Positions 745-20,149 of a DNA stretch of 20,149 bases are shown in pieces (positions within the stretch are counted from its first letter, which is position 1; every line of letters starts with the position of its first letter). The stretch spans positions 1 through 20,149 of the IMG/VR virus record IMGVR_UViG_3300009184_000294; one strand, written 5' to 3'. Made by a program: the position numbers and the translations under genes. The notes under the pieces are model-generated. The model did no database searches and had not been told where the DNA came from. It saw only the letters and a list, made by a program, of their open reading frames with translations. Source of the DNA: a virus.

Positions 745-930
745 ATGGACATCAATCTCATCAAGTTCCTAGCAAAACAACACGATGAGGGTCGGCGCGA
801 CGCAGAAGCAGTTCTGGCAAGCGCCTGCCTTGAAGCCTACGAGCAGGGGTTTGATGATGGGGCCAAAGATGCCGAAGAACGCATCGCACAGACCCAGATG
901 TTGCTGATGTTTACCGCAGGAAGCGCGTAA
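745..930 (+). CDS. Hypothetical protein, 61 aa
   Basis: The ATG lies 2 bases after the stop of the preceding gene and has no clear Shine-Dalgarno, so translation is probably coupled. The product has 61 residues, is rich in Ala, Glu and Asp, and contains a run E-A-Y-E-Q-G-F-D-D-G-A resembling helical segments of small phage proteins of unknown role. Its TAA stop (928-930) overlaps the U-tract of the terminator that serves the opposite strand. Function unknown. Confidence 0.55.
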   Translation: MDINLIKFLAKQHDEGRRDAEAVLASACLEAYEQGFDDGAKDAEERIAQTQMLLMFTAGSA

Positions 931-4811: not shown

Positions 4812-5864
4812 TTATTGCTCCACTAAGTAGCCGTCGGCATCGTAAAAATTACCCTTGCCATCGTGATATTCTGCACCAGAAGGAGCCATGCCCCCATCCG
4901 CAAGGCGAACACCGCCGCCGTTTGCTTTGTGAATTGCCCCGCCTTTTGCCGTCTTTGCCGCAAGTTTTCTTTTGTATTCGGCGTCAGCGGCGGCGGCATC
5001 TGCCTGTTGCTTAATCAAGTTGCCTTGAGCGTCTAAATTTGGATTCTCGGACGGGAACAACGAGGCAACCAAAGAACCTAAGCCAGCAATCTGCGACAGC
5101 GGGCTTGCGGAGTAACCCTCGGAGCCAGTTGCCTGCGTAGTCGTACCCATAGGCATTTGGTAGCCCTGCATCAGCTTGGCAAACTGCTGGGTCTGGGCCA
5201 TTGGATAGTCCAGCAAAGCCTGACCCTGCTTCTGCTGTTGAGCGCCGTAGTCGGACATGGTCTTCAAACCCGCAACGCCCAATTGCTGTTGCTCTTGGCC
5301 CAATTGAGTAAAGCCTTGGCCCGCCTGCAAGGCACGCTGTAAGTCGGCCTGAGCCTGCGTTCCAGCCTGCGTATAGCCTTGCTGGAGGGCTTGCATCTGC
5401 TTACCAGTCAAGTCAGCTTGGATGTCGCGCAAAGTGTTGCCAGTGACTTGCTGTTGACGACGTGAGCCGAATTGACCAGAACTGATAGCGCCAGCCCCAA
5501 GGTTGGGGAGTATATTTTCGTTGACATTGCGGTTTGTCAACCTGCCCATCTCATCCACCACGCTGGAGGTGTAGGGATTCATGTAGTCTGCGACCACATC
5601 AGGCATGGTCGTGGAGCCAGCCTCGCCCAACAACTGGGAAGACGCGCCCAAGGAGCCAGCGCCAGCAAAGGCCACGTCTGGGGCCATTTGGAAGGCTTGC
5701 TGTTGCAGTGGGCTAAAACCAGCAATTCCGCCCTGTTGGACAGCGTTCTGGCCTAAGTTGGCAATGTCCTGAAGGTAATTCGTGTAAAACTCTGGAGCCG
5801 TCTGTTGCGACTCGGTCGTCTTGGTAATCGCTGGTAGCGGGTCACCTTGAAATAAGCCAGCCAT
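4812..5864 (-). CDS. Probable structural/internal virion protein, 350 aa
   Basis: A 350-residue Gln/Ala/Gly-rich protein. The segment Y-M-N-P-Y-T-S-S-V-V-D (about 93-103), followed by an Ala/Gly/Gln/Arg-rich stretch with G-Q-F-G-S-R-R, resembles a motif I know from hypothetical virion-region proteins of uncultured aquatic phages; no biochemical role is known to me. The middle (about 145-225) is a Gln-rich helical region. The C-terminus has spaced Gly pairs (residues 307-325) and ends with D-G-K-G-N-F-Y-D-A-D-G-Y, both echoed in the neighbouring 840-aa protein. The ATG overlaps the preceding stop by one base (TAATG), with AAGGAG 9 bases upstream. A structural role is inferred from context. Confidence 0.75.
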   Translation of the reverse strand: MAGLFQGDPLPAITKTTESQQTAPEFYTNYLQDIANLGQNAVQQGGIAGFSPLQQQAFQMAPDVAFAGAGSLGASSQLLGEAGSTTMPDVVADYMNPYTSSVVDEMGRLTNRNVNENILPNLGAGAISSGQFGSRRQQQVTGNTLRDIQADLTGKQMQALQQGYTQAGTQAQADLQRALQAGQGFTQLGQEQQQLGVAGLKTMSDYGAQQQKQGQALLDYPMAQTQQFAKLMQGYQMPMGTTTQATGSEGYSASPLSQIAGLGSLVASLFPSENPNLDAQGNLIKQQADAAAADAEYKRKLAAKTAKGGAIHKANGGGVRLADGGMAPSGAEYHDGKGNFYDADGYLVEQ

Positions 5865-8386
5865 TATTTTGCTCCTTTGAGGTACGAGGTCAGCGCCTTA
5901 GTCTTAGGTGGAATTTTATTCAGCGGGGCCGAACGCTTGTGAGCGCGGATGCCCTCGCGAAACCTATCCAACGCCTGAGCGCCAGCCTTGGTTGAACCGT
6001 TGCCAATCTGGGCTACGGTCTCGGCGTCAATCACATACTCGCCATCTGCAAGCATAGCTGGGATGTCATCCGACTGTCCATCACCTTCGCCATGAACGGC
6101 GGAGCCATTGCGAAAATCCATGCGACCTTCAACTAGCGGCACATTAGAAACGTGGGGCAGGCCACCGCTACGCATCGGGGGAGGCATACCTTGTTGTTGG
6201 GGCATCATGCCGTTTTGCGGGATACCCTGCTGTGGCATCGTAGGCGACATCTGCTGTTGGGCCATCGGAGGAGCCTGCTGTGGCAAGCCCTGCTGTTGAG
6301 CCTGTTGGGCGGGTTGCTGTTGCCCGACTTGGGTCATCATGTCTGGTGGGTTCATGGGAGGCTGTGGGCGCATACCCAAGTTCGCCATGATGTCGGCAGG
6401 CTGTCCAAAGGTGTAGTACGAAGCAACGGGAGAGGCCATTGCAGACAAACCGCCAGAAGCCTTTTTCTGAACAGGCGCGTCCTCGTAGCCGTAATCACCC
6501 TCGTTCACAGGGTTGTACCCCGGAGCGTTCAAGTTCTTCAGCAACTCCGCGTTTGGCGTGTACCCGCCGCCGTCAGTGCCGTACTGGTCGTAGCCAACAA
6601 AGTTGGTTGGGCCAACACCAAAGTCAGTGGTGCGAGGGTTGATGACGCCAACCTTGGACATATCCAAGCCTTGGTTTTGGTCGCCACTACCGCTGAAATC
6701 TTGGCCTAGCAATGTGGCAAGCAAAGCACCAGCGCCAGCCGCGCCTGCGGTTGTTCCAAGGGCGCTTTTAATGCCCGTCAAAGCGCCACTGCCTAAATTA
6801 CTAACAGTATCAATTCCCTTGGTCAACAGGTTACCTTGGTTGTAACTCTTTGCTCCACTACCAACATTTGTGATTGGCGCACTTTCATACAGGGAGCCAT
6901 TTTTAAAAATGTTCCCAAGAGAATCTGTACTGTAGTAGTCATCTTTTGGGGTTGGGGAGGAAACTGCATCCTCATTTACATATGAAATTTCACCAGTGTC
7001 GGGGTCAGTTGAGTACAGGTAATTATCCGTATTCATGTCGTAAGTAAAATTGCCAATGGTGTATGTTTCATCACCGTTGTCAACAGCGCCTTCAGGCAAA
7101 GAACCACCCGTAGCCATATGCATACCCCCACCATTCTTCATCATAGTAATTAAGCCGCCAGCCCTTTCTTCTGGCAACGGCTCCTCATCGGTTACAACTA
7201 GGTCTTCCTCATCGGTTGCAACTGGGACTTCTTCCTCATCGGTTACGACGGGGGCGTAAGGCTCAACGTAATCAGTATTCCAAGAGCCGTCCGCACTCTG
7301 AGTCCACAAAGCCCCAGTATCTGGGTCAGTCCAAGTTTCTGGCGCAACGTCCTCGGTAACGTCCTCGGTAACGTCCTCGGCAACTTCAGCCGCACGATAC
7401 AAGTCATATCCACCATCGGCAGTGGAGATGTAAATATTGCCCAAGGAGTCTTGGAAATATTCAGGCTCAAAAGGAGCCTCTGGCGTTACTGCCGCAACTT
7501 GGTCACCCTCAAGCGGGGCGGTTGTGGTTTCTGCGGCTTTATACAACTCATAAGAACCATCGGGCATTGTTTTATAAACATTACCCAATGAGTCGGTCAT
7601 AAATTCATCTGGAACTTCTGCGGCGCGATAAAGTACAGATGTTCCATCGGGCATGGTTTTGTAGACATTGCCTAATGAGTCGGTTGTAAATTCTTCATCT
7701 TCTTTTCCAAAACCAGTGCCAGACGGCAAGCCAGTAGCGGGGTTTGTAACTGGGGGAGTTACAACGCTTGTTACTGGAGCCTTTGGGTCTGGCTTTTTAT
7801 TTGGGGCATTTAACGCCGCCGCTTTTTTTTCTGCGGCAATTTGAGCGGCGGATTTGACGTTTTTTGAGTCATCTCTAATTGGAGGAGTGACAACAGGCTT
7901 TCCAGTCAGCTTGTCAATGATTAACTTTGTGCCAGCACCAAGCGCCGCACCAGTGAGCGCGTTTGTGATTGCGTTTGTGGTTGCGCTTGGCTTTGTAGTA
8001 TTTGGCTTAATCGCAGGCTTTGTTGCAGGCGTAGGCGTAGTGATGCTTGTGATTGGCTTGGTCGTGCCAGTCGAAATTGAGGGCTTGGTCGTAACAGCTG
8101 GCTTAGTTGTGCTGGTAGTGATGCTAGGCTTAGTGCCAGTCGTAGATGTCAAAGTCTGTTTTGGCGCACCAGTCGCGGGAGTGGTAATTGCAGGCTTAGT
8201 AGTCGCAAGCGTGGTAATCGCAGGCGTAGTAATCGCTGGCCTCGAACCAGTCGGGGTCGGGCGATTAGACGTGTCGTAGATAGAGGGAGCATTCCCGCCG
8301 CTAATGACGCTACTCAGCGGTGCGCGGTCAATCCCCCTTGCTTCAGGAAGCCGTCTGCTTGATGTGCGCTTTTTTAGAATAGCCAT
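5864..8386 (-). CDS. Large modular repetitive virion protein, 840 aa
   Basis: An 840-residue protein of distinct low-complexity modules. Residues 45-140 are Thr/Lys/Pro repeats (K-P-A-I-T-T type). Residues 232-334 hold three copies of a D-S-L-G-N-x-Y...D-G...L-Y-[RK]-A-A-E motif, with a shorter copy near 488-502. Residues 336-347 are V-T-E-D repeats and 380-405 are T-D-E-E repeats. A Gly-pair motif lies at 410-428, an Ala/Gly-rich stretch at 533-562, and a Gln/Pro/Met-rich stretch at 672-738. The C-terminal module at 766-815 contains S-D-D-I-P-A-M-L-A-D-G-E-Y-V-I, a signature I recognise from virion proteins of uncultured aquatic and cyano-/pelagiphage-like genomes, function unknown. There is no catalytic motif. 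Position suggests an internal or tail-associated structural protein. The ATG has AGGA 7 bases upstream. Confidence 0.78.
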   Translation of the reverse strand: MAILKKRTSSRRLPEARGIDRAPLSSVISGGNAPSIYDTSNRPTPTGSRPAITTPAITTLATTKPAITTPATGAPKQTLTSTTGTKPSITTSTTKPAVTTKPSISTGTTKPITSITTPTPATKPAIKPNTTKPSATTNAITNALTGAALGAGTKLIIDKLTGKPVVTPPIRDDSKNVKSAAQIAAEKKAAALNAPNKKPDPKAPVTSVVTPPVTNPATGLPSGTGFGKEDEEFTTDSLGNVYKTMPDGTSVLYRAAEVPDEFMTDSLGNVYKTMPDGSYELYKAAETTTAPLEGDQVAAVTPEAPFEPEYFQDSLGNIYISTADGGYDLYRAAEVAEDVTEDVTEDVAPETWTDPDTGALWTQSADGSWNTDYVEPYAPVVTDEEEVPVATDEEDLVVTDEEPLPEERAGGLITMMKNGGGMHMATGGSLPEGAVDNGDETYTIGNFTYDMNTDNYLYSTDPDTGEISYVNEDAVSSPTPKDDYYSTDSLGNIFKNGSLYESAPITNVGSGAKSYNQGNLLTKGIDTVSNLGSGALTGIKSALGTTAGAAGAGALLATLLGQDFSGSGDQNQGLDMSKVGVINPRTTDFGVGPTNFVGYDQYGTDGGGYTPNAELLKNLNAPGYNPVNEGDYGYEDAPVQKKASGGLSAMASPVASYYTFGQPADIMANLGMRPQPPMNPPDMMTQVGQQQPAQQAQQQGLPQQAPPMAQQQMSPTMPQQGIPQNGMMPQQQGMPPPMRSGGLPHVSNVPLVEGRMDFRNGSAVHGEGDGQSDDIPAMLADGEYVIDAETVAQIGNGSTKAGAQALDRFREGIRAHKRSAPLNKIPPKTKALTSYLKGAK
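7169..7381 (-). repeat. Short acidic tandem repeats (VTED and TDEE)
   Basis: A 12-bp unit (AACGTCCTCGGT on the plus strand) repeats about three times at 7340-7381 and encodes V-T-E-D units. A second array at 7169-7249 has a CCTCATCGGTT core three times and encodes T-D-E-E units separated by short variable linkers. Both sit in frame in the 840-aa protein and produce strongly acidic segments. Confidence 0.8.
7526..7693 (-). repeat. 87-bp tandem repeat encoding the DSLGN module
   Basis: Two adjacent near-identical copies (period 29 codons) encode D-S-L-G-N-V-Y-K-T-M-P-D-G followed by L-Y-[RK]-A-A-E. A third, more diverged copy lies at about 7382-7450 and a short fourth at about 6880-6940. The pattern indicates in-frame duplication of a small protein module. 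Confidence 0.8.
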
Positions 8387-8389
8387 GTC

Positions 8390-10036
8390 TTATCCTGTCT
8401 TTTTCACCGTTGAGGTTAAGCCTGCAATGTTTTGTATGGGCGTCAATTTTGCAGTGCTGTCCAACCGTTGCGCTGGCGCATTGACGGGCTTCTTCACTGA
8501 AGGCAATGCGGTAGCCTTCTGAATTGGAATTAGTTGAGCCACATCCATTTTTTGCGGAGGCGGTCTGTTTACTGGACGAGCCGCTGGCTTTGCCGCTTGC
8601 AGTCCACCTACAGGCCGCTGAGGGCGGGCCGCAGGTTTTTTCTGCATTAAGGTGGATTTCAAAATATTGCCCGCCGAAGCAACCAAAGGCTTGGTAATGT
8701 CAGTCGCTTTTAAGCCTTGTGCCTCAGCCATCTTCTCTTCTGGCGTTTTGCCAGCCACCGCATTCAAACCACCTTGCGGGGTTTCTGGGGCAAGTCCAGT
8801 AGCCGTCAAACTTTGACCCAATGGTGCTTCAGAAATAACTGGTACTGCGGAAGTTGCAACAGGCTCTTCGCCAATCTTAGACAAGTCAAGCGAGTCAGAC
8901 ACAGCCGCCAAACCGCCCTTTGGCGTCAAATCAGGCGCTTCATCAATTTTTTGCTCAGAGCCAACTTCAGCCAAGTCCTCTGGAATTTCTTGACCAAGGT
9001 TAGTTTCTTCAGTCTTGGGATTGTTCAAGTCAATCAAGTCAGAAAAGCTGGAAACCTCTTCTGCTTTAGGAGCCTCAGACAAACTAACATCCGAGTCCGA
9101 GTTGTCTGGTTGCTTGTATGCCGAGTCAGAAATAATTTGCGCAACATCAGCAGTTTGCACTGGCTCGGCTATTATTTTAGAAGATGCGTCTACAGGTTGG
9201 TTGTCAGTCCCAATATCGGAAACCTTAACCTCGGTCACCAAGTCATTGGGAATGCCTGCGCCAGTGATGGCAACATCAACGGGGTCGCTTTCTTTGTCTT
9301 TTTCATTCCAGTTGGAAGCTACATCTTTGAATTGCTTGTCAATCGTATTGTTCAAAGAGCCAACGCCATAATCAACAGAGGAGCCAATTGCACTGTTGGT
9401 AAACGCCGTAGCAAAATCATTCTTACCAGTGATTTCAGAAGTTACCCCCGCAGAGATTGCTCGTGTGCCAGCGTTAAAAAGAGAAGTTGCATCTTTTAAA
9501 TCAAGGCCGCTTTCTTGCGCTAATGCAATCACATCAGGCTTGACGTAATCTCCAACCTCTCTAACGCCTCCACCCACCATGCCACCAACAAAACCGCCAG
9601 AAAATCCATCTTCAAAATTGCCGCCTTTAATTTCGGCAACAGTGCCATTTACCAAGCCCTTGCTAACAGAAGAGCCAATAACATCAGACACCGTTTCGTT
9701 AATGCCCGCCTCAATTAAAGTGTTTGAAAACGTAGAGGTAAGCGAACTTCCAACAGTAGGCGCAAAGTAAGCCGCCCCAGCGGAGAGAACAATGTCCTCT
9801 AAGTCGCCGCCGCGTGCCGCAGTAATAGCCGCCATCGTCACAGGCGCAGGAATGCCAATCATTTGGCCCCCAATAGCCAAAAGAGTTGGGATTGGGTCTG
9901 CAATTACAGCCTCAACAACTTGAACAACTTTATCAGCAACCGCTGTGACAACGTCTGCAACAGCCTCAACAACAGCGCCAACAACGTCAACAACCGCGCC
10001 AACAACGTCTTCGACAAAACTTACTACTGCGCTCAT
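8390..10036 (-). CDS. Probable internal/membrane-active virion protein, 548 aa
   Basis: A 548-residue protein. Residues 4-47 are a Val/Ala-rich, heptad-like repeat (V-V-G-A-V-V-D, V-V-G-A-V-V-E and variants) predicted to form an amphipathic or membrane-inserting helix. Residues 48-150 are Gly/Ala/Ser-rich with repeated G-G-[DN]-[LF]-E-D motifs, resembling glycine-zipper-like hydrophobic regions. The second half is acidic (about 270-420), and the last 110 residues are Lys/Pro/Ala-rich and basic. No enzymatic motif was seen. As the first large gene after the tail hub and ACP/ketosynthase cassette, it sits where T7 has its ejection proteins. Start at ATG 10036 with AAGGGA upstream. Membrane interaction is inferred from composition. 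Confidence 0.72.
   Translation of the reverse strand: MSAVVSFVEDVVGAVVDVVGAVVEAVADVVTAVADKVVQVVEAVIADPIPTLLAIGGQMIGIPAPVTMAAITAARGGDLEDIVLSAGAAYFAPTVGSSLTSTFSNTLIEAGINETVSDVIGSSVSKGLVNGTVAEIKGGNFEDGFSGGFVGGMVGGGVREVGDYVKPDVIALAQESGLDLKDATSLFNAGTRAISAGVTSEITGKNDFATAFTNSAIGSSVDYGVGSLNNTIDKQFKDVASNWNEKDKESDPVDVAITGAGIPNDLVTEVKVSDIGTDNQPVDASSKIIAEPVQTADVAQIISDSAYKQPDNSDSDVSLSEAPKAEEVSSFSDLIDLNNPKTEETNLGQEIPEDLAEVGSEQKIDEAPDLTPKGGLAAVSDSLDLSKIGEEPVATSAVPVISEAPLGQSLTATGLAPETPQGGLNAVAGKTPEEKMAEAQGLKATDITKPLVASAGNILKSTLMQKKPAARPQRPVGGLQAAKPAARPVNRPPPQKMDVAQLIPIQKATALPSVKKPVNAPAQRLDSTAKLTPIQNIAGLTSTVKKTG
9899..10009 (-). repeat. Degenerate 21-bp repeat encoding Val-rich heptads
   Basis: The DNA shows recurring CAACAACGTC/CAACAGC-type units on the plus strand, encoding V-V-G-A-V-V-D-like heptads in the N-terminus of the 548-aa protein. 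The units have drifted but keep the heptad hydrophobic pattern. Confidence 0.65.
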
Positions 10037-10038
10037 GT

Positions 10039-10482
10039 CTAATCCCTTTCAGCCCGCTTCGGGCCTAGTTTGACCGTAACGCGAAAGCCGTTCTTGGTCT
10101 TCTCAGCGCGATAACCCATATCCTCTTGGGGCGGGTTGCGCGAGATTGCTTTGAAAATGTTCATAATCGTTGGGTCTTGGAAGTCAGACACCAGAACATC
10201 AAAACCCATTTTGTATGCGGCTTGAATGAAAGCGTAAGAACTCTCCAAGTAATTACGGGCGGTGTCTGCGTTTAAAGCGCGGAAAACACCAGTCCGACCC
10301 TCGGCGTTATGGACGACGAAAAGAGTATTGCCCTCACGCACGGTGGTTGTGCCGGGCATATTCATCTCTTTGATGATTGCCGCGTAAACCGTGGAAGCGG
10401 GATGGGGAGACTTGGTCTCCTGAGCCGCAATCATTAAGATTGCCTGTTCACCCAATTTTTTCTGTTTGCTATCTACCAGCAT
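10039..10482 (-). CDS. GNAT-like protein of unknown function, 147 aa
   Basis: The ATG at 10482 overlaps the ketosynthase stop by one base (TGATG), with AGGGG 6 bases upstream; a GTG one codon earlier is an alternative start. The product is 147 residues. Its apparent order of elements fits the C-terminal half of a GNAT acyltransferase: strands around G-N-T-L-F-V-V and T-G-V-F-R-A, a helix (N-Y-L-E-S-S-Y...), strand F-D-V-L-V-S-D-F, helix P-T-I-M-N-I-F-K-A, then two strands ending F-R-V-T-V-K-L. The classic acyl-CoA-binding motif (Q/R-x-x-G-x-G/A) is not evident, so activity is uncertain. It lies directly downstream of ACP and ketosynthase and upstream of the internal virion proteins, a position like that of T7 gene 13. 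It may transfer an acyl group, or may be a small structural protein. Confidence 0.65.
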   Translation of the reverse strand: MLVDSKQKKLGEQAILMIAAQETKSPHPASTVYAAIIKEMNMPGTTTVREGNTLFVVHNAEGRTGVFRALNADTARNYLESSYAFIQAAYKMGFDVLVSDFQDPTIMNIFKAISRNPPQEDMGYRAEKTKNGFRVTVKLGPKRAERD

Positions 10483-11591
10483 CACATCCCCTTAAAAATT
10501 GCGGCGGAGTAGATGTTGCCCATCCCAGCCGCCAGACTCATTATCAAGCCACTCGGTGGGCTTGTCGATTCCGAAAGGAATACCGAGTCGGTTTCAGTTC
10601 GGTTTTCAATTGCTGGAATAAAGCCCGCCTTCATGTCATCCAACAATAAAAGTGTTTCAAGCAGTCCACTGCTACCCATCGTGTGACCAATCTTCTGCTT
10701 GTACGAAGTAGCCACAAACGCTTTTAGTGTATTGCCCAGCGCCGTTTTTTCAGCCAAGTTGTTGGAAGCTGTACCAGTGCCGTGGGTCTTGACGATTTTA
10801 ATTTCATCTGGGTTGACGTTGGCAAAGTGCATAGCGCCCTCCATAGCCTTCTTGAAGCCCTCGCCGTCCTCACATTGCCCAATTGCGTTTGTGGAGCGTT
10901 CTGAGGCGCTGTACGCCCCTACTAGGCGGGCGTGAGGCTTGAGATGCTGACTGGCAACCGCCTCGCGGGATTCAAAAACCGCCAAGGCCGCGCCCTGACC
11001 GACTCGAAAGCCAAAGTTGGTCGAATCAAAAGCGGATGGCTTGATGCCCGTCTCTTCCTGCTTTTGGGTGAGTACCGCCTTGGCTTCGCCAAAGAACTCC
11101 AACACCGCGTTGGAGACACCATCCTCGACCGTCAGGACAATGACGCGGTCAAAGTGGTAGAACTGGATAAGGTTTTGCACGTCCATCATCACCTTGAGAC
11201 TGGAAGCACAGGCCGAGGAATCGGTCGTCACCATGTCCATGTCACCAAAGGACTGGGCAACGCGGCCCGCGTAGACCTGCGTTAGCGTGAACGGCAAGAA
11301 CCTGTAGTTGTAACTCAGACGAGAGTTGTAGGGGCGCTGATTCAATCCAGCAAAGTGGGCGTTGCCACCCGCAAGGATGAAGGCTGTTTTCCCTATAGGG
11401 TTCTCGCGCAGGTAGGTCAGCAACTCAGGGTCAAGTACCTTCTCCGCCAACTTGTGGGGAACGTAGACCAGCCCCGACTTGGCTCGGTTGTAGGTATCAG
11501 GGAACCAATTGACCTTCTGGGGGAAGACGATGTCATCCAGCAACTCCACGTTGGTGGTGGAGGCTGTGCGGTAGTGCGTGAGGTAAATCAT
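10482..11591 (-). CDS. Beta-ketoacyl-ACP synthase (FabB/FabF-like ketosynthase)
   Basis: A 369-residue ketosynthase, the enzyme class that condenses malonyl-ACP with an acyl thioester on its active-site Cys. Cys128 sits in S-S-A-C-A-S-S, close to the FabB nucleophile motif. His270 is in T-H-G-T-G-T, Lys298 in Y-K-Q-K-I-G-H, and His303 in G-H-T-M-G-S-S-G. The K-to-H spacing of five matches FabF K335/H340, so the catalytic set looks intact. F-R-V-G-Q-G-A-A (195-202) replaces the usual GEGA-type strand. The C-terminal G-M-G-N-I-Y (356-361) replaces the usual G-F-G-G-T-N loop. The N-terminal region is divergent, and the protein is shorter than the roughly 410 residues of FabB/FabF. The ATG at 11591 overlaps the ACP stop (ATGA) with GAGG 7 bases upstream; an in-frame start at 11687 would overlap the ACP gene by 100 bases and is unlikely. 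Neighbouring genes are phage structural genes. Confidence 0.9.
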   Translation of the reverse strand: MIYLTHYRTASTTNVELLDDIVFPQKVNWFPDTYNRAKSGLVYVPHKLAEKVLDPELLTYLRENPIGKTAFILAGGNAHFAGLNQRPYNSRLSYNYRFLPFTLTQVYAGRVAQSFGDMDMVTTDSSACASSLKVMMDVQNLIQFYHFDRVIVLTVEDGVSNAVLEFFGEAKAVLTQKQEETGIKPSAFDSTNFGFRVGQGAALAVFESREAVASQHLKPHARLVGAYSASERSTNAIGQCEDGEGFKKAMEGAMHFANVNPDEIKIVKTHGTGTASNNLAEKTALGNTLKAFVATSYKQKIGHTMGSSGLLETLLLLDDMKAGFIPAIENRTETDSVFLSESTSPPSGLIMSLAAGMGNIYSAAIFKGM

Positions 11592-11869
11592 TTGCACACC
11601 TCTTTGACTTCTTCCATAGAGGCTGGCTCTTTGGTCTTGCTTCCCATCACGAGGTCGTGCAGTTCCTGAACGGTCTTGGGAGACCACTCCTTGCTGTCCT
11701 CGTCAGCGATTCCATAGAGGTCATCAAAGTACATCAGCATGACCAGCCCGTCAAGGCTGTCCAAACCAATGTCCTCGAATTTGTCGTCAAGCGACGTGGC
11801 GATGCTTGGCTTGGTATGCGCAGGACGCGCCACCTTTGCCACATAGTTAAAGATTTCAATGAAGTTCAT
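11588..11869 (-). CDS. Acyl carrier protein
   Basis: A 93-residue acidic protein with the acyl carrier signature: D-I-G-L-D-S-L-D (33-40), where Ser38 would carry 4'-phosphopantetheine, followed by a helix (G-L-V-M-L-M-Y-F-D-D) and Y-G-I, matching helix II of AcpP and its E-x-x-F/Y-x-I ending. The N-terminus is longer and more basic than AcpP, and a polar tail follows after about residue 76. It carries acyl chains as thioesters for the ketosynthase encoded next, whose start overlaps this stop by 4 bases. The start itself overlaps the stop of the 86-aa gene (ATGA) and has AGGA 9 bases upstream. No phosphopantetheinyl transferase is visible here, so the host AcpS would have to activate it. The alternative, a carrier domain for polyketide or amino-acyl transfer, cannot be excluded. 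Confidence 0.9.
   Translation of the reverse strand: MNFIEIFNYVAKVARPAHTKPSIATSLDDKFEDIGLDSLDGLVMLMYFDDLYGIADEDSKEWSPKTVQELHDLVMGSKTKEPASMEEVKEVCK
11597..11602 (-). promoter_or_regulatory. Ribosome-binding site that fixes the ketosynthase start
   Basis: GAGGTG on the minus strand, inside the last codons of the ACP gene, with GAGG 7 bases before the ATG at 11591. Together with the ATGA overlap it supports this start over the in-frame start 96 bases upstream, and indicates coupled translation of ACP and ketosynthase. Confidence 0.7.
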
Positions 11870-12126
11870 GTTGCCGTTTCCTGTGTAGGTTGATTGACTG
11901 CTCCGACTAGTGCTGATGCCCAGTCTTGCCAGTTCTCATATATATAGGGGCCGGGGATACCTTCATTTGTGAAAACGTCGATAGCCTTTAAACCTGCCGC
12001 CCACTGCTTCCACTCCTCTTCGGGAGTATTCATTGATAGCTGTTGCGCCGCATACGCCTCCACCATGAGACTCGTCCACGAGTTCCATGTGTGATAACGG
12101 GGGTCGTATACGACTGCAAGAGCCAT
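11866..12126 (-). CDS. Small Trp-rich phage protein, 86 aa
   Basis: An 86-residue protein with repeated aromatic motifs (Y-H-T-W-N-S-W-T near 11-18, E-E-W-K-Q-W near 37-42, N-W-Q-D-W-A near 65-70). The pattern D-P-R-Y-H-T-W-x-S-W recalls small unknown proteins encoded next to podovirus tail-hub genes, but I cannot name a family with certainty. It starts 1 base after the tail-hub stop and overlaps the ACP start by 4 bases, so it is translated with both. It could be a small virion or assembly component, or a partner of the ACP; function unknown. Confidence 0.7.
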   Translation of the reverse strand: MALAVVYDPRYHTWNSWTSLMVEAYAAQQLSMNTPEEEWKQWAAGLKAIDVFTNEGIPGPYIYENWQDWASALVGAVNQPTQETAT

Positions 12127-12127
12127 G

Positions 12128-14383
12128 TTAGGTTCCGTAAGGTCTGACGTCGCCTAGCGTGACGCTCAACAGAACCTTGCCCATTTGGTAGTCGCCACCG
12201 CTCACGTTGCTTCTGAAACGCAAACGAATCTCGCGCCGTTGCTGGCGCATATCAATCTTGCCCGTGTCAGGGTCAAACGGGTACTCTTGCGAAGCAACGT
12301 CCGCAGACTGGGCATAAGGCCGACCAGTCACTTGGAATGTCATTGGCCCCTGCTGAATGAAGTCAGGCTCCACGCGCTCCAAGTTAACCCAAAAGTTATC
12401 GCCAATGGGCGCAGTCTGCGCAGGCCCGCCAGCCACAAAGCCCAAATCGCTGGTCTCAAAATAGCTATCAATGGCGTTGGAGGTTTCAAAGATAACCTCG
12501 TCAGTCCCAATTTCGTGTTGCCACAAAGTCACTCGCCCAGCAACCGACTCAAAGTCAGCCAGCACAATGGCGGTCGCCGTAGCCGCAGAAGTGAGGGTTA
12601 CATTGAACCCAGAGAACCCAATGGCTCCCGATACCGCACCGCTGTTGACCGCCGACAGGGTGACCGTCGTACCCACGATGCTCACCACGGTTGCGCCTGT
12701 ACCGATTCCTGTACCAGTCACCAATTGATTGCGAAGAATTCCCGTGGCGCTTGCCACAATGATTGTGCTTGCACCAGAAGTCCCCGTAGCCGTGGTTGAG
12801 GCCGAGTTGCTTGAAAGCAAAGAAACTGTTGTATTGTCGGGGATTCCAGTAGCCACAACCAACTGCCCAAAGGCCACCGTGTTGACGGGGGACATGGTCA
12901 CCACCGCGCTACCGTTGGTTGTTGCAATCGAGGCAGAGAACAAGATGTCCTGAGTGCTGAGAGTTGCGCCAGCGTTGATGGGGTAATGGAACACTTGCGA
13001 GAAGTACCCAGCGGTACGATAGGCTCCCAAAGCGCCGCCAGCGTCATACCAGCAGTCTTCGCGAATGTTGTAGATGATGCAATCGTTGCACTCCTCGCTG
13101 TCTCCAGAGGGGAAAAACCACCAGATTTCGCCAAAGCGGGGAACCTTGTTGGCGTAGACCTTCTGGCGCTGGTTGTAGTTCAGATTGTCAAAGAAGTAGT
13201 TCTGATTGAACGTGTTCTTGATTTCCTTGACCACACCGTTGTACAGCAGGAAGCGGTCAACCCCAATCCAGTAGTAAATGCCGTCGTACTCAATGATGCA
13301 CTGGCTTGACATGATGGAGGACTGGCTTGTGATGAGGTCATAGCGCCAGTAGAAGGTCTGAGGAGTGCCGCCAACCGTCACTGTGGTGGGTGTGTAGCTG
13401 ACGCGAATCAATGAGTCCAACGACCAAAACAGGCCAGAAGGCGAGTTGGAGCCGCCGCGTACTGGTAATCCTTTGACAATCTTTGTGGAGGACACGTTGG
13501 TCTCGTTGGAGTCTGGGCCATTCCAATCGTAGGGATTACCTGCTACGCAGTTCTTGATGAGGCCGTTGTCGCCATAGACGAAGACATAGGGGTGAAGTAC
13601 CACCACGCCGCCAGAGACTTCAATGAGGTCACCCGTCGGGGTCGAGCCAGCGGTGTCCGCCAATGGCGACATATTGGTTCCGCTGATGTCTCCAGCAAAC
13701 ACGGGGGTGTTGACGATGGCGTCAATCTGGGCCAAGTTCTGACCGGGGTGCGCCAACAGCAATTGATTGCCCGAACCCTGCGAATCAAACATGGAGTCAA
13801 ACTGCCACAGGTTTAAATCGCTTGGGGTGAAAGAGCCTGTAACGGTTGCAATCAACACAGAAAATCCAGCGCCAGTTCCGCCAATGGAGGCGGCAGGGGC
13901 GGTCAAAGACTCTCCTGCGTTGTAGTAGTCTCCACCGTTAGTTATTGTGACGGTGATGACGATGTTGCCCGCCACCACAACGGTAGCAATTGCGCCAGAG
14001 CCAGTGCCGCCAGTTAAGGCAACGCCTGTGTAGGTTCCATTGGTGTACCCAGCGCCGGGGGTTATTGTCCCTAGCGTGAGAATTGGAGCGCCAAAATGTA
14101 TTTGTTGGATGCCAGCGCCGATGCCGTTGTTGTCCATATTGACAACTTCGAGTCCATCATTGAACCCATTGAAGACTTGGTTGTTGCCGTCTACCGAATT
14201 GACGTACAGGCCGCGTGAGTACCCTTGAGCCTCACTGGTGATGGCGCGGTAGCCGCCAATCTTGCGAGGGCGACCACGTTGGAACCGAACCCAAAGTGCG
14301 TCGGTGTAGAAGTTCATATCGAATATCGTGCCGTCCCGTTGGACTCCCGGCAACGTGTCGATGGTAAAGACCTTCTTCACCAT
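12128..14383 (-). CDS. Tail hub / DNA-stabilisation-like tail protein, 751 aa
   Basis: A 751-residue beta-rich protein. The N-terminus (G-V-Q-R-D-G-T-I-F-D near 13-22, W-V-R-F-Q-R-G-R-P-R-K-I-G-G-Y-R near 31-46) is the opening I associate with large tail proteins of uncultured podoviruses, resembling P22 gp10-type packaged-DNA stabilisation and T7 gp12-type tail-tube proteins. Two Gly/Thr-rich beta insertions interrupt the core. One at about 104-182 has G-A-G-Y-T-N-G-T-Y and G-G-T-G-S-G-A motifs. The other at about 489-602 holds two copies of a G-x-x-x-V...G-T-G-I-x-x-x-T-x-V unit. It lies shortly downstream of the adaptor gene, as tail-hub genes usually do. The ATG overlaps the preceding stop by one base (TGATG), with GGAG upstream. 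A structural tail role is likely; assignment to gp10 or gp12 is tentative. Confidence 0.75.
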   Translation of the reverse strand: MVKKVFTIDTLPGVQRDGTIFDMNFYTDALWVRFQRGRPRKIGGYRAITSEAQGYSRGLYVNSVDGNNQVFNGFNDGLEVVNMDNNGIGAGIQQIHFGAPILTLGTITPGAGYTNGTYTGVALTGGTGSGAIATVVVAGNIVITVTITNGGDYYNAGESLTAPAASIGGTGAGFSVLIATVTGSFTPSDLNLWQFDSMFDSQGSGNQLLLAHPGQNLAQIDAIVNTPVFAGDISGTNMSPLADTAGSTPTGDLIEVSGGVVVLHPYVFVYGDNGLIKNCVAGNPYDWNGPDSNETNVSSTKIVKGLPVRGGSNSPSGLFWSLDSLIRVSYTPTTVTVGGTPQTFYWRYDLITSQSSIMSSQCIIEYDGIYYWIGVDRFLLYNGVVKEIKNTFNQNYFFDNLNYNQRQKVYANKVPRFGEIWWFFPSGDSEECNDCIIYNIREDCWYDAGGALGAYRTAGYFSQVFHYPINAGATLSTQDILFSASIATTNGSAVVTMSPVNTVAFGQLVVATGIPDNTTVSLLSSNSASTTATGTSGASTIIVASATGILRNQLVTGTGIGTGATVVSIVGTTVTLSAVNSGAVSGAIGFSGFNVTLTSAATATAIVLADFESVAGRVTLWQHEIGTDEVIFETSNAIDSYFETSDLGFVAGGPAQTAPIGDNFWVNLERVEPDFIQQGPMTFQVTGRPYAQSADVASQEYPFDPDTGKIDMRQQRREIRLRFRSNVSGGDYQMGKVLLSVTLGDVRPYGT

Positions 14384-15629: not shown

Positions 15630-16265
15630 TTAAGTATCCAATACAGTTGCTTGACGGTCACCAATGCGCTGTACGTCCTCAGACTTCAGGGTCTGAATGA
15701 TGAGGTCGTAATTCTGTTGCCACATGGGCATCCGCTCATCGTTCTTGATGTACGGCATAGCCTGCAACAAACACCCATACAGCAAAGCCTGTGGAGCGTA
15801 GATGGTGAACCAATTCGTTTGGTTGGAGGAATCAAGAGGTTGAAGCCTCTCGTAGTACAGAACTTCAAAATCATATGCAACATCAGGCGAGGGAGCGACT
15901 AGCCAATGGGTGTAGTCGTAGTCGCCGTAGTAGGCTGGCGCACCAGTCGTTGTGGCGTCTGGGGTGAACTCGCGTAGGTACTCGTACTTGCGAAGCAGTA
16001 CAGGTTGTTTCTGACCGTCTACGGTGACGTTAAAAGACACCGTTTTGTGCCAGCGGGCAGGCTTGTCGATGATGGGTTGGCCCGCCACCATTGTGGAAGT
16101 CTGAACCGTCAGGTTGCCAAGGAACTTGATTTGGCTGGCGATGATTTGCTCTGCCAGCATAATGAACAGGGGTATTTTGGCAAGCGTGTCGTCATCAGTA
16201 CGGTCAAGGTAAGACTGAATGTTTTCGACCAAAGAGTCGTAAGTCATTACCGATGCGGTTGCCAT
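15630..16265 (-). CDS. Head-tail adaptor (T7 gp11 / P22 gp4-like)
   Basis: A 211-residue protein with the pattern of podovirus head-to-tail adaptors. It has an N-terminal helix with I-P-L-F-I-M-L-A-E-Q-I-I (31-42), then a beta region with P-A-R-W-H-K-T, and near the C-terminus V-L-Y-Y-E-R-L-Q-P-L, a T-N-W-F segment, A-P-Q-A-L-L-Y-G-C-L-L and M-P-Y-I-K-N-D-E-R-M. The L-Y-Y...P-L...T-N-W...L-Y-G...P-Y...D-E-R series is what I recognise from T7 gp11 (tail tubular A) and related adaptor families. It would bind the portal and connect it to the tail hub, whose gene lies one gene downstream. The ATG lies 2 bases past the endolysin stop, with GGGG upstream. Confidence 0.78.
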   Translation of the reverse strand: MATASVMTYDSLVENIQSYLDRTDDDTLAKIPLFIMLAEQIIASQIKFLGNLTVQTSTMVAGQPIIDKPARWHKTVSFNVTVDGQKQPVLLRKYEYLREFTPDATTTGAPAYYGDYDYTHWLVAPSPDVAYDFEVLYYERLQPLDSSNQTNWFTIYAPQALLYGCLLQAMPYIKNDERMPMWQQNYDLIIQTLKSEDVQRIGDRQATVLDT

Positions 16266-16267
16266 AT

Positions 16268-16609
16268 TTACCCCACGTTTCGTTCAAAATGTGGACAATC
16301 CACCAAAGATTTAAAGTTGCCACCCCAGCGGTTTTTAGGGTGTAGAGACTCCCAGAAAGCGCCCAGCGGCGCGAGGATGCCCTTATCCCAGATTATCTGC
16401 CCATCCTTGAAGAAGTTCAAGTCGATGGCGCATCGCTTGAGGTGGATGGAGTTGAGGGTCTTGGAGCGTCCCGTGTTGACGTAGATGGCCTGTTGCTCAG
16501 GTGTACGGGCCAACTCCCCGCCAGTGACCATAAAACCCTGTTCTGTGGCGTATTGAATCAGCTTGCAGGCATCCAGCAGGAATGCCGCTTGGTCTTGGCT
16601 AAGGCTCAT
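16268..16609 (-). CDS. M15-family peptidase endolysin
   Basis: A 113-residue enzyme of the M15 peptidase family (D-Ala-D-Ala carboxypeptidase / L-Ala-D-Glu endopeptidase type), which cuts peptidoglycan stem peptides to lyse the host. Zinc ligands fit His56 and Asp63 in S-I-H-L-K-R-C-A-I-D-L and His107 in D-C-P-H-F-E-R. G-G-E-L-A-R-T (30-36), Q-Q-A-I-Y and R-W-G-G-N-F match conserved M15 motifs. The length fits small phage endolysins, and there is no signal peptide, consistent with holin-dependent release. I chose ATG 16609, which overlaps the holin stop by 4 bases (ATGA); an in-frame start 75 bases upstream would lie inside the holin gene. Confidence 0.88.
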   Translation of the reverse strand: MSLSQDQAAFLLDACKLIQYATEQGFMVTGGELARTPEQQAIYVNTGRSKTLNSIHLKRCAIDLNFFKDGQIIWDKGILAPLGAFWESLHPKNRWGGNFKSLVDCPHFERNVG

Positions 16610-17118
16610 TTTTTGCTCCTCATGTCCGCCAGCTTCTCTACTGTTCGACCGCCAAAATACGCGAGAAAGATTATTTGGCCCCACTGGCCCAGCAAATTTA
16701 CATAGCTTTCTTGTGCGTTATACCCGAACGCGGACATCATGGTGAACAAAAAGAACGCCACAAAAATGGCAATCAGGGCCATTGGACGAATGTTCTTGGA
16801 CAGCCAAGAGTCGGAAGACATATCAGCCTTCCAGCGGTCACTGATGTTGTCTTCTTGATTCGCTTGTGCCTCCAACAAGATTTTTAGTTCTTCTTGCTCA
16901 ACACGAGCCTTTTCAATGCCTAACTCAAGCAGGCGCTCTTCGTGGTCATACTGCAACTGACGCAGTTTGCCAATTTCTTCGGGGCTTGGGTTGTCGGAAA
17001 TCTTCACGCCCAGAGCGTTCTCGACGACTTCTTTGCCCTTTGCTTGGATTGCAGAAGACAAAAGGCCCAGACCATTCTGAGCCAATGTACCAAGGAGTGA
17101 TGCAACAATTGGAATCAT
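16606..17118 (-). CDS. Holin, 3-TM type
   Basis: A 170-residue protein with an N-terminal hydrophobic segment (1-25), a charged coiled-coil region (about 45-100), and two C-terminal membrane segments (about 112-133, preceded by N-I-R-P, and 139-157, ending G-G-R-T). This layout, with the R-P before the second segment, matches the 3-TM phage holin family seen in phages and gene transfer agents. Holins permeabilise the inner membrane so the endolysin can reach the wall. The downstream endolysin start overlaps its stop. The ATG has AGGGA 7 bases upstream and lies 1 base past the preceding stop. Confidence 0.82.
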   Translation of the reverse strand: MIPIVASLLGTLAQNGLGLLSSAIQAKGKEVVENALGVKISDNPSPEEIGKLRQLQYDHEERLLELGIEKARVEQEELKILLEAQANQEDNISDRWKADMSSDSWLSKNIRPMALIAIFVAFFLFTMMSAFGYNAQESYVNLLGQWGQIIFLAYFGGRTVEKLADMRSKK

Positions 17119-18856: not shown

Positions 18857-19792
18857 TTAGGCTCCTGCTTTCAGTGCTGCTACGTCAGTTTGCAGTTGGG
18901 TGATTAGGGCTTGCTGTTCTTGGATTGCTTTAATGCACAAAGAAACCATATTCCCGTAAGCCAAAGCGTCAGGGGAGCCGTCTTCTGCGTATTGCACAAA
19001 CTCAGTAAGACCAGCTTCATGTACTTCTTCAGCAATCAAACCACCAAAAATAGTCTCGCCGTCGTTCTTGCCTTTGTATGTGACTGCTCTTAATTTCAGC
19101 GCATCAACAAGACCATGTGTTGCATCTTGGACATCTGTTTTGTATTTCAAAGATGATGTCGAACGCTGTAAATCTCCACTAGTACCAACTGTCATGTTTG
19201 CGGCGGCGGCTGTTGTATTGTTATACGGGCAAGCGGCTAATCCTGAAGTTGATGTTCCCGTAAAAATAGCACCATCATTTCTAACAGATAACAAAGCGAC
19301 ATTGGAAGAGTTATATGTAAGTGTTGCGTAAGTTGCACTTGTTGTACCAATACCGTTAAGTCTCAATCGTGCGCCGCCACCTGTTGAGCCAATGCTTACA
19401 TCACCACTGGAGTCGATACGCATACGCTCTGCGTTATTAGTGCCAAATAACAAAGACCTTGCACCACGACCATTGATTGCAAAAGTATCGTTTCCACCAG
19501 AACCAAAACAGTTTGTTGCAGTACCTAAATCAGCAATTACAGTTCCGCTAGTTGCTACGGTTATATATCCACCATTAGCATTTGTACTGTTAAAACCAGT
19601 AATAATGCCAGCAGTGGTATCTATAGCCAGTCTTGCGGAACCCGGCGAAGTCGTTCCTAGCCCCATATTCTGTGAAGCATCAATGGTGACTGCCGCCGTA
19701 CCATTGGTCTGGAGTTGCAGAATGCCGCTGGCGTCTGCCGTCTGGACTATGCCGCCGCTGCCTGTGCTTGAGGCATTTATCGTTGATGTCAT
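18857..19792 (-). CDS. Tail fibre with Peptidase_S74 (ICA) domain, 311 aa
   Basis: A 311-residue fibre. Residues 1-200 are beta-repeat rich, with the typical A-E-R-M-R-I-D-S-S-G-D-V-S-I-G fibre motif near 121-135. From about 211 to the end is the intramolecular chaperone auto-processing (ICA, Peptidase_S74) domain: Ser213 and Lys218 in S-S-L-K-Y-K fit the Ser-Lys dyad (five apart), followed by F-G-G-L-I-A-E-E-V and a C-terminal trimerisation helix (K-A-I-Q-E-Q-Q-A-L). These domains fold fibre trimers and then cut themselves off before the dyad Ser. The start overlaps the preceding fibre's stop by 4 bases (ATGA). Confidence 0.9.
   Translation of the reverse strand: MTSTINASSTGSGGIVQTADASGILQLQTNGTAAVTIDASQNMGLGTTSPGSARLAIDTTAGIITGFNSTNANGGYITVATSGTVIADLGTATNCFGSGGNDTFAINGRGARSLLFGTNNAERMRIDSSGDVSIGSTGGGARLRLNGIGTTSATYATLTYNSSNVALLSVRNDGAIFTGTSTSGLAACPYNNTTAAAANMTVGTSGDLQRSTSSLKYKTDVQDATHGLVDALKLRAVTYKGKNDGETIFGGLIAEEVHEAGLTEFVQYAEDGSPDALAYGNMVSLCIKAIQEQQALITQLQTDVAALKAGA
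18868..18933 (-). repeat. Copy A of a 66-bp repeat at the 3' end of the S74 fibre genes
   Basis: Matches 19800-19865 at 60 of 66 positions by direct comparison. It encodes the C-terminal trimerisation helix of the 311-aa fibre. The shared end marks the two S74 domains as duplicates or products of exchange. Confidence 0.85.
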
Positions 19793-20149
19793 GCTGCGCC
19801 TTTCAATGCTGCTACGTCAGCTTGTAGTTGGATGATTAGGGCTTGCTGCTCTTGGATGGCTTTAACAAGTACAGGCAACATAAAGTCTGGAGTAATTGTT
19901 AAATAAGGCGTCCCGTCTTCAGCTTTTTCGTCTTTCTCAACCACCATTTCGGGAATTAGCGGCAATAAATTTTGCGCTTTAAACCCAAGTTTTTTAGGGC
20001 TGTTATCGTCTTCCCAGTTAAAGTGAAATTTAACGGGTTCAATTTGCAATACTTCTGCAAGACCTTGAGATGGCTCAAAGTTTTTCTTTTGACGAACATC
20101 AGATGCGCCAGCAGCCCAATTTGCCGAACCTTGTGATATAGATGGGCCA
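19789..20149 (-). CDS. Tail fibre with Peptidase_S74 domain, C-terminal part (gene continues beyond window)
   Basis: The frame is open from the right edge to the TGA at 19789-19791, giving the last ~119 residues of a larger protein; the start is outside the window. It carries an S74 domain: A-S-D-V-R-Q-K-K-N-F places the Ser (codon at 20101-20103) and Lys (20086-20088) five apart, as in the dyad. It is followed by L-G-F-K-A-Q-N-L-L-P (the F-I/K-A-Q-E/N segment) and a C-terminal helix K-A-I-Q-E-Q-Q-A-L-I. The fibre body upstream of the cut site is mostly missing, so its host-contact part cannot be judged. Confidence 0.88.
   Translation of the reverse strand, partial: GPSISQGSANWAAGASDVRQKKNFEPSQGLAEVLQIEPVKFHFNWEDDNSPKKLGFKAQNLLPLIPEMVVEKDEKAEDGTPYLTITPDFMLPVLVKAIQEQQALIIQLQADVAALKGAA
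19800..19865 (-). repeat. Copy B of a 66-bp repeat at the 3' end of the S74 fibre genes
   Basis: The direct-repeat partner of 18868-18933, 932 bp away. It encodes the C-terminal helix of the upstream partial S74 fibre. Recombination between copies could remove or swap one fibre gene. Confidence 0.85.

Follow-up and report, generated by a model that had tools for sequence, protein, structure and literature searches.

The virus record analyzed here (IMG/VR record IMGVR_UViG_3300009184_000294; the entire stretch of 20,149 bp is hereinafter referred to as the window) encodes, in the midst of a block of virion genes, a divergent acyl carrier protein (ACP) and a ketosynthase (KS) that are followed by a predicted GNAT-fold protein and a large protein with an amphipathic N-terminus. 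We interpret this gene set as a phage acyl-modification module that would consist of a dedicated ACP, a FabF-fold KS, a GNAT-fold acyltransferase and, probably, an acceptor encoded in the virion block. The activity is predicted from sequence comparison, structural models and analogy with characterized systems, and we put the probability of this reading at about 40%. That the ACP, the KS and the GNAT-fold protein belong to one acyl-transfer pathway, as their sequences and models suggest, appears to us about an even bet. The genes occur in a large phage group whose members are mostly uncultured.

All the genes in question are on the minus strand, and their order in the direction of transcription is an SU10-type adaptor protein (15630-16265; PF24175), a 414-aa protein, a tail hub or stabilization-type virion protein of 751 aa (12128-14383; phrog_3287), an 86-aa Trp-rich gene (p86; 11866-12126), which is present in KS-less relatives too, the ACP (93 aa; 11588-11869), the KS (369 aa; 10482-11591, with the ATG at 11591), the 148-aa GNAT-fold gene (10039-10485), a 548-aa virion-block protein (8390-10036), further large virion-block genes and, finally, an ejection-type virion protein containing an SLT transglycosylase (987-2849). 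In the window, the stop codon of the ACP and the start codon of the KS share the sequence ATGA, a 4-nt overlap, and the start codon of the GNAT-fold gene overlaps the KS stop codon. An earlier note on this DNA had placed the pair, as overlapping genes, between the tail hub and internal virion protein genes; the position and the overlap hold, and we add that p86 separates the hub from the ACP and that the GNAT-fold gene comes after the KS.

By both sequence and structural model, the 369-aa protein is a ketosynthase of the KAS I/II superfamily with the FabF fold. The Pfam domains Ketoacyl-synt_C (E = 2.5e-15, 56.9 bits) and ketoacyl-synt (E = 4e-10, 40.2 bits) both score above the cut-off of 20.8, and the protein aligns to FabF across residues 97-367, where Cys128 (11208-11210), His270 (10782-10784), Lys298 (10698-10700) and His303 (10683-10685), the residues singled out previously, correspond to the Cys/His/Lys/His set of FabF. 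The AF2 model of the KS (mean pLDDT 91.8) adopts the ketosynthase fold, and a Foldseek search with this model retrieved AntD, the actinorhodin KS and FabF, with E-values of about 1e-24 to 1e-22 (best 2.7e-24) and TM-scores of about 0.8. Structure prediction and profile searches had both been proposed as checks. Among NCBIfam profiles, the KS is nearest to FabF, yet remains far under all equivalog cut-offs, and its matches include pathway enzymes, such as AmcF. Given that the score with the FabF equivalog TIGR03150 is only 110.7 bits, compared to the cut-off of 493.75 bits, we consider this protein to be a ketosynthase, but not FabF. It shares with FabF and FabB (KAS I/II) the fold, the Pfam domains and the catalytic residues, but is about 45 residues shorter, chiefly in the N-terminal half. 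Furthermore, where FabF has a gating loop of the GFGG type, the phage enzyme contains GMGN (residues 356-359; window 10513-10524), which is found in 194 of the 194 unique sequences and may signify a different acyl specificity.

The 93-aa protein is, judging from its sequence, a divergent ACP. The GLDSLD motif that had been reported is present in the window, and Ser38 (11756-11758) aligns with the phosphopantetheine serine of the DSL motif; across 192 unique ACP sequences, D37 and S38 are invariant, and L39 is found in 187, with Met in the other 5. The proposed HMM check of the ACP, in contrast to that of the KS, was only partly positive: with the Pfam PP-binding profile, the window ACP scored 16.5 bits, under the cut-off of 20.8, whereas matches to ACPs from the PDB (E = 3.5e-4) and to the PHROG ACP family (6e-4) were detected. 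Similarly, only 2 of 22 ACP relatives reached an E-value of 0.01 with PP-binding. The assignment thus relies on the PDB and PHROG matches, the DSL motif and the strict pairing with the KS.

The earlier note had regarded absence of the pair from all related phages, together with disruption in read data, as grounds for abandoning its reading, and such absence was not borne out: a scan of IMG/VR produced 575 confirmed stretches with relatives, making the ACP-KS family an abundant one in which the pair recurs. Inspection of 324 loci, many of which share contigs, yielded 193 unique complete KS sequences beyond that of the window (194 in all). The ACP adjoins the KS in 318 of the 324 loci, and in the remaining six, the stretch retrieved, or the contig itself, ends close to the KS; the 4-nt overlap of the two genes is found in 148 of 156 loci. 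His270, Lys298 and His303 are present in all 194 unique KS sequences, and Cys128 in 193. Median Ka/Ks values are low for the KS (0.092) and the ACP (0.147), as well as for the GNAT-fold gene (0.103) and the hub (0.117). Because, in addition to the numerous relatives and the low Ka/Ks, the computed chance of a 369-codon open frame at the position of the KS is about 8e-7, the pair can hardly be a chance occurrence. The invariant residues together with the low Ka/Ks support the conclusion that the ACP and the KS are real and evolve under selection for catalysis, in agreement with what had been surmised from the retention of catalytic residues in the window. The sole unique KS without the catalytic Cys, in locus L306, has Arg in its place and represents either a sequencing error or an inactive copy.

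This conservation bears on two rival explanations. The fixed place of the genes in the virion block of most loci would be compatible with a structural role, with a KS dimer and the ACP serving as virion or assembly components and catalysis being incidental. However, a structural role is hard to reconcile with the near-invariant catalytic residues, or with a clade that has the pair among replication genes and an unchanged order of the neighboring virion genes, which makes this explanation very improbable. Alternatively, the two proteins might interfere with the host, by sequestering phosphopantetheine, malonyl or acyl groups, or by acting as a malonyl-ACP decarboxylase or decoy, and thus shut down lipid synthesis in the host or release its ACP-binding proteins. 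The divergence of the ACP and the KS fits such interference, as does the fact that host take-over genes are often found among early genes, a setting to which the replication-block clade can be compared, but a decoy would have no need for the complete Cys/His/Lys/His set, with the condensation Cys preserved in 193 of 194 unique KS, and we regard this possibility as decidedly improbable.

The only clear relative of the KS among annotated phages is that of MW202545 (Manatee Spring), with 63% identity; the other matches in INPHARED, at 24-29% identity, belong to records that are unannotated or named fabB, and are host-type in appearance. A scan of bacterial genome contigs gave a single KS match, in a contig of a Balneolaceae MAG whose gene set is phage-like. 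Within the sensitivity of these searches, the KS family is essentially phage-borne, and recent capture of host FabF and AcpP finds no support in the bacterial scan.

The virion block is not the only location of the pair. In 58 of the 324 loci, ACP-KS is found between an SNF2-type helicase and a 99-aa gene (p99), in a replication block that also includes a primase, a nuclease, a single-strand-binding-like protein and a ribonucleotide reductase (names assigned from reading the sequences, not from library matches). In the KS tree, the replication context amounts to two changes, with one clade nested within sequences from the virion context, and L312 as an apparent reversion. Where the pair resides in the replication block, the order of the remaining virion-block genes is unaltered: G001, G003, G005, G008 and G013 contain the hub, p86 and GNAT in the usual virion-block order, and contigs of the same group have ACP-KS in the replication block, whereas G009 presents the reverse case, with ACP-KS in the virion block and none between the helicase and p99. 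Given that a related clade retains the same overlapping ACP-KS beside the SNF2-type helicase and the ribonucleotide reductase, the virion operon is not essential to the pair, and we rejected it as the explanation for the pair. Of the earlier suggestion that the phage makes or redirects an acyl group late in infection, the part on the acyl group, through the phage's own ACP and KS, probably stands, whereas late expression as an intrinsic feature of the pair is not supported. The note did not cover the GNAT-fold and helix genes that go with the pair even after relocation, the PPTase gene found in one lineage, or the shared absence of the set from KS-less relatives.

The location near a ribonucleotide reductase in one clade, a typical site of metabolic genes, brings up auxiliary lipid metabolism, that is, the possibility that the KS and the ACP boost fatty acid synthesis of the infected host, or retune it with respect to chain length or unsaturation, and so affect the supply or the state of the membrane, the GNAT being unrelated. 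A FabF-fold KS with the full catalytic set is well suited to this role, which is also the usual reading of other phage ACPs (PMC11705849, PMC8224337). We nevertheless find it unlikely because both proteins are highly divergent rather than host-like FabF and AcpP (111 bits vs 494 for FabF), no further fatty acid gene was noticed in the stretches read, and the regular occurrence of a single GNAT and a single helix-bearing protein alongside the pair would be left unexplained.

This third component, the 148-aa protein, is a candidate acyltransferase for which the GNAT fold is predicted confidently. Sequence-library searches returned no match for it; in the AF2 model (pLDDT 89), the secondary structure elements follow the GNAT order, and the best 50 matches in a Foldseek search of the PDB were all GNAT-type acetyltransferases, with E-values from 2e-4. 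The Q/RxxGxG/A motif of the CoA pyrophosphate loop occurs, anywhere in the sequence, in only 12 of 138 GNAT sequences and is absent from the other 126. RtxC-type acyltransferases are marked by the use of acyl-ACP and by a conserved Ser/His pair; among the phage sequences themselves, the conserved positions are Ser6 (100%), His59 (93%) and Asp74 (100%). Alternatively, the protein might use acetyl-CoA, like a typical GNAT enzyme, or have a structural function. In the virion context, it is encoded immediately after the KS in at least 225 of the 234 loci with room for it, and among the seven counted misses that were inspected, six merely overlap the KS by a few nucleotides. In the opposite direction, 80 of the 80 loci retrieved by GNAT similarity contain the KS. 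Where ACP-KS is found among the replication genes, the GNAT keeps its place behind the hub and p86 in the virion block.

The only KS-less contig in which this GNAT was found is L373 (6.5 kb), where the ACP lies directly beside the GNAT (5128-5916) and both frames are intact; this could be a natural loss of the KS or an assembly variant. We also considered whether the GNAT is the generic acetyltransferase that other phages encode behind the hub. The sole example, a 124-aa putative acetyltransferase after the hub in L352 (MW202879; 8839-9213), which lacks ACP-KS, is unrelated to the 148-aa GNAT by profile comparison, and this explanation was rejected; different GNAT-like genes seem to occupy the post-hub place in different phages.

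Relatives of the hub allow a comparison of phages with and without the KS. Among those with more than 2.5 kb of downstream sequence, the GNAT was found in none of the 46 that lack the KS and in all 4 that have it, and 13 long KS-less contigs together with Caulobacter phage RW, searched over their whole length, contain neither gene. The KS-less relatives, including the cultured phage RW, are devoid of the ACP, the KS, the GNAT and, where inspected, the N-terminal helix of the downstream protein, and keep p86. In L088-type lineages, the gene order ACP-KS-GNAT-helix is the same, and a hub homologue is undetectable. On the hub tree, the presence of the KS and that of the GNAT change approximately twice, always together. 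With about two independent changes, the co-occurrence is only suggestive, and a statistical test of co-dependence was set aside because one or two independent pairs provide no power. Relocation of ACP-KS that leaves the GNAT behind is better evidence than adjacency, although it is largely one event; shared descent or co-mobilization of neighbors could account for part of the co-occurrence.

The gene that follows the GNAT is represented by 148 unique sequences, and in 142 of these, the encoded protein starts with M-[S/G/A]-A-V and a helix that is strongly amphipathic and rich in Val and Ala; in the window, the 548-aa protein starts with MSAVV, and the Val/Ala-rich helix spans approximately residues 1-50 (9887-10036). 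An amphipathic start was seen in none of the 35 positional equivalents measured in KS-less relatives (moment of 1.5 or less for the distinct ones listed, vs a median of 2.2). Because this protein has the same distribution as the gene set and a membrane-active look, we tentatively favor it as the candidate acceptor. No Lys is conserved in the helix, and 48 of the 142 sequences have none in the first 50 residues, so that Lys acylation is not favored. N-terminal acylation at the small residue in position 2 is suggestive only, given that other virion genes share this feature, with a small residue in that position in 64-81%.

A different outlet for the acyl chain would be a small molecule, with the ACP, the KS and the GNAT making an acylated metabolite, such as an N-acyl amino acid or a lactone-like compound, for signaling or host manipulation. 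GNAT-like LuxI synthases make such compounds from acyl-ACP, a dedicated ACP-KS together with a GNAT suits specialized acyl products, and AmcF is among the profile matches of the KS. The persistence of the GNAT beside the helix-bearing protein in the virion block when ACP-KS leaves favors a virion-linked target instead, and a metabolite as the product seems improbable.

For acylation of a virion protein, a complete scheme can be outlined: the phages would build their own fatty-acyl chain on the dedicated ACP, and the GNAT, acting as an acyl-ACP transferase, would attach it to the virion protein with the amphipathic helix, which would be ejected into the envelope of the host. Taken as a whole, this scheme is rather less likely than not. 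Its first step would be the conversion of the ACP to holo-ACP by a host or phage phosphopantetheinyl transferase (PPTase). KS enzymes condense acyl groups with malonyl-ACP, and the phage KS, along with host FabD, FabG, FabZ and FabI, would elongate or prime a specific acyl chain carried by the phage ACP. The GNAT would transfer this chain, possibly from acyl-ACP, to the favored acceptor, the protein encoded next, the start of which resembles that of membrane-active ejection proteins. Once acylated, perhaps at the N-terminal residue left by the removal of Met, this protein would enter the membrane more readily during genome delivery. In the ORF lists around the pair (loci only), the ACP and the KS are co-encoded and a full set of fatty acid synthase genes was not seen; with no such set in its surroundings, the pair presumably leans on the host FabD/G/Z/I. 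An AcpS-like PPTase (PF01648, 54 bits vs the cut-off of 25; TIGR00556, 60 vs 45) is encoded in two contigs of a single KS-bearing lineage (L338:10083-10448, minus strand; L344:6382-6747, plus strand), between the primase and an 82-aa gene, about 4 kb from ACP-KS.

Two characterized systems offer counterparts of these steps. In rhizobia, NodA transfers the acyl chain of NodF-NodE. NodF serves as the dedicated ACP and NodE as the KS, and together they direct a special acyl chain (PMC9048898). The phage pair likewise combines a specialized ACP with a KS, a likeness by description, but differs in being phage-borne and in having a divergent 369-aa KS and a GNAT-fold transferase candidate. In RTX toxin activation (HlyC/ApxIC), the RtxC-type enzyme ApxIC has the GNAT fold, uses acyl-ACP and lacks CoA-contact elements (PMC8339906). 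The phage GNAT, similarly, mostly lacks the CoA-loop motif and is linked to an ACP and to a membrane-active-looking neighbor; this, too, is a likeness by description, and ApxIC was not among the best 50 Foldseek PDB matches of the phage protein. To our knowledge, the ACP used in RTX systems is that of the host, and these systems do not include a KS, in contrast to the phage set, which includes both, with the use of acyl-ACP by its GNAT being putative. Counterparts of each NodFE and RtxC step in the phage set led us to propose the route of charging the ACP, building the chain and transferring it. Myristoylated capsid peptides exist in some animal viruses, and acylation of a phage virion protein, if true, would be the bacterial-virus counterpart of these peptides and of RTX toxin activation.

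Phage-borne ACP genes are also found in R22Y, vB_EliS-R6L and R16F (phrog_5934), where, in the parts of the descriptions available to us, they are presented as single genes of unclear function, with no mention of a KS partner. An acpP-fabF-fabG combination, that is, an ACP and a KS as in the present case, by description only, has been reported in predicted prophage regions of Rhodobacteraceae (PMC8224337), but because the order fabG-acpP-fabF is that of the host fab operon, these genes may be host flanks. A literature search on phage ketosynthases, fabF/acpP auxiliary genes and virion fatty acylation, which covered few subscription papers and no bioRxiv preprints, found nothing on the ACP-KS family, on the GNAT that accompanies it or on the move of the pair between blocks; the earlier note, too, named no characterized role for such a pair in a virion operon. 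The superfamilies of the parts are known, and their combination in a phage appears to be new. Phage ACP genes have been repeatedly reported without a function. Accompanied by a dedicated condensing enzyme, by a candidate transferase that is regularly present and, in one lineage, by a PPTase, the ACP would cease to be an ill-defined auxiliary metabolic gene and become part of a short pathway whose product can be tested for. Should the acceptor be a virion protein, the pathway would point to lipid-anchored crossing of the envelope, a poorly understood step, in podovirus-type phages.

Several other features of the window, away from the gene set, were noted. A Peptidase_S74-like chaperone end (18857-19792, minus strand) scored 18.4 bits, against a cut-off of 22, and is followed by a short ORF (19789-20049, minus strand) that resembles it at the C-terminus; the tail-fibre end appears to have been duplicated. 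A gene for an M15-type peptidase, an endolysin candidate, overlaps a 3TM-holin-like gene (16268-16684 and 16606-17118, minus strand). Finally, two small ORFs on the opposite strand (521-742 and 745-930, plus strand) are kept in 15 and 10, respectively, of 82 related loci, and probably mark the start of the next transcription unit.
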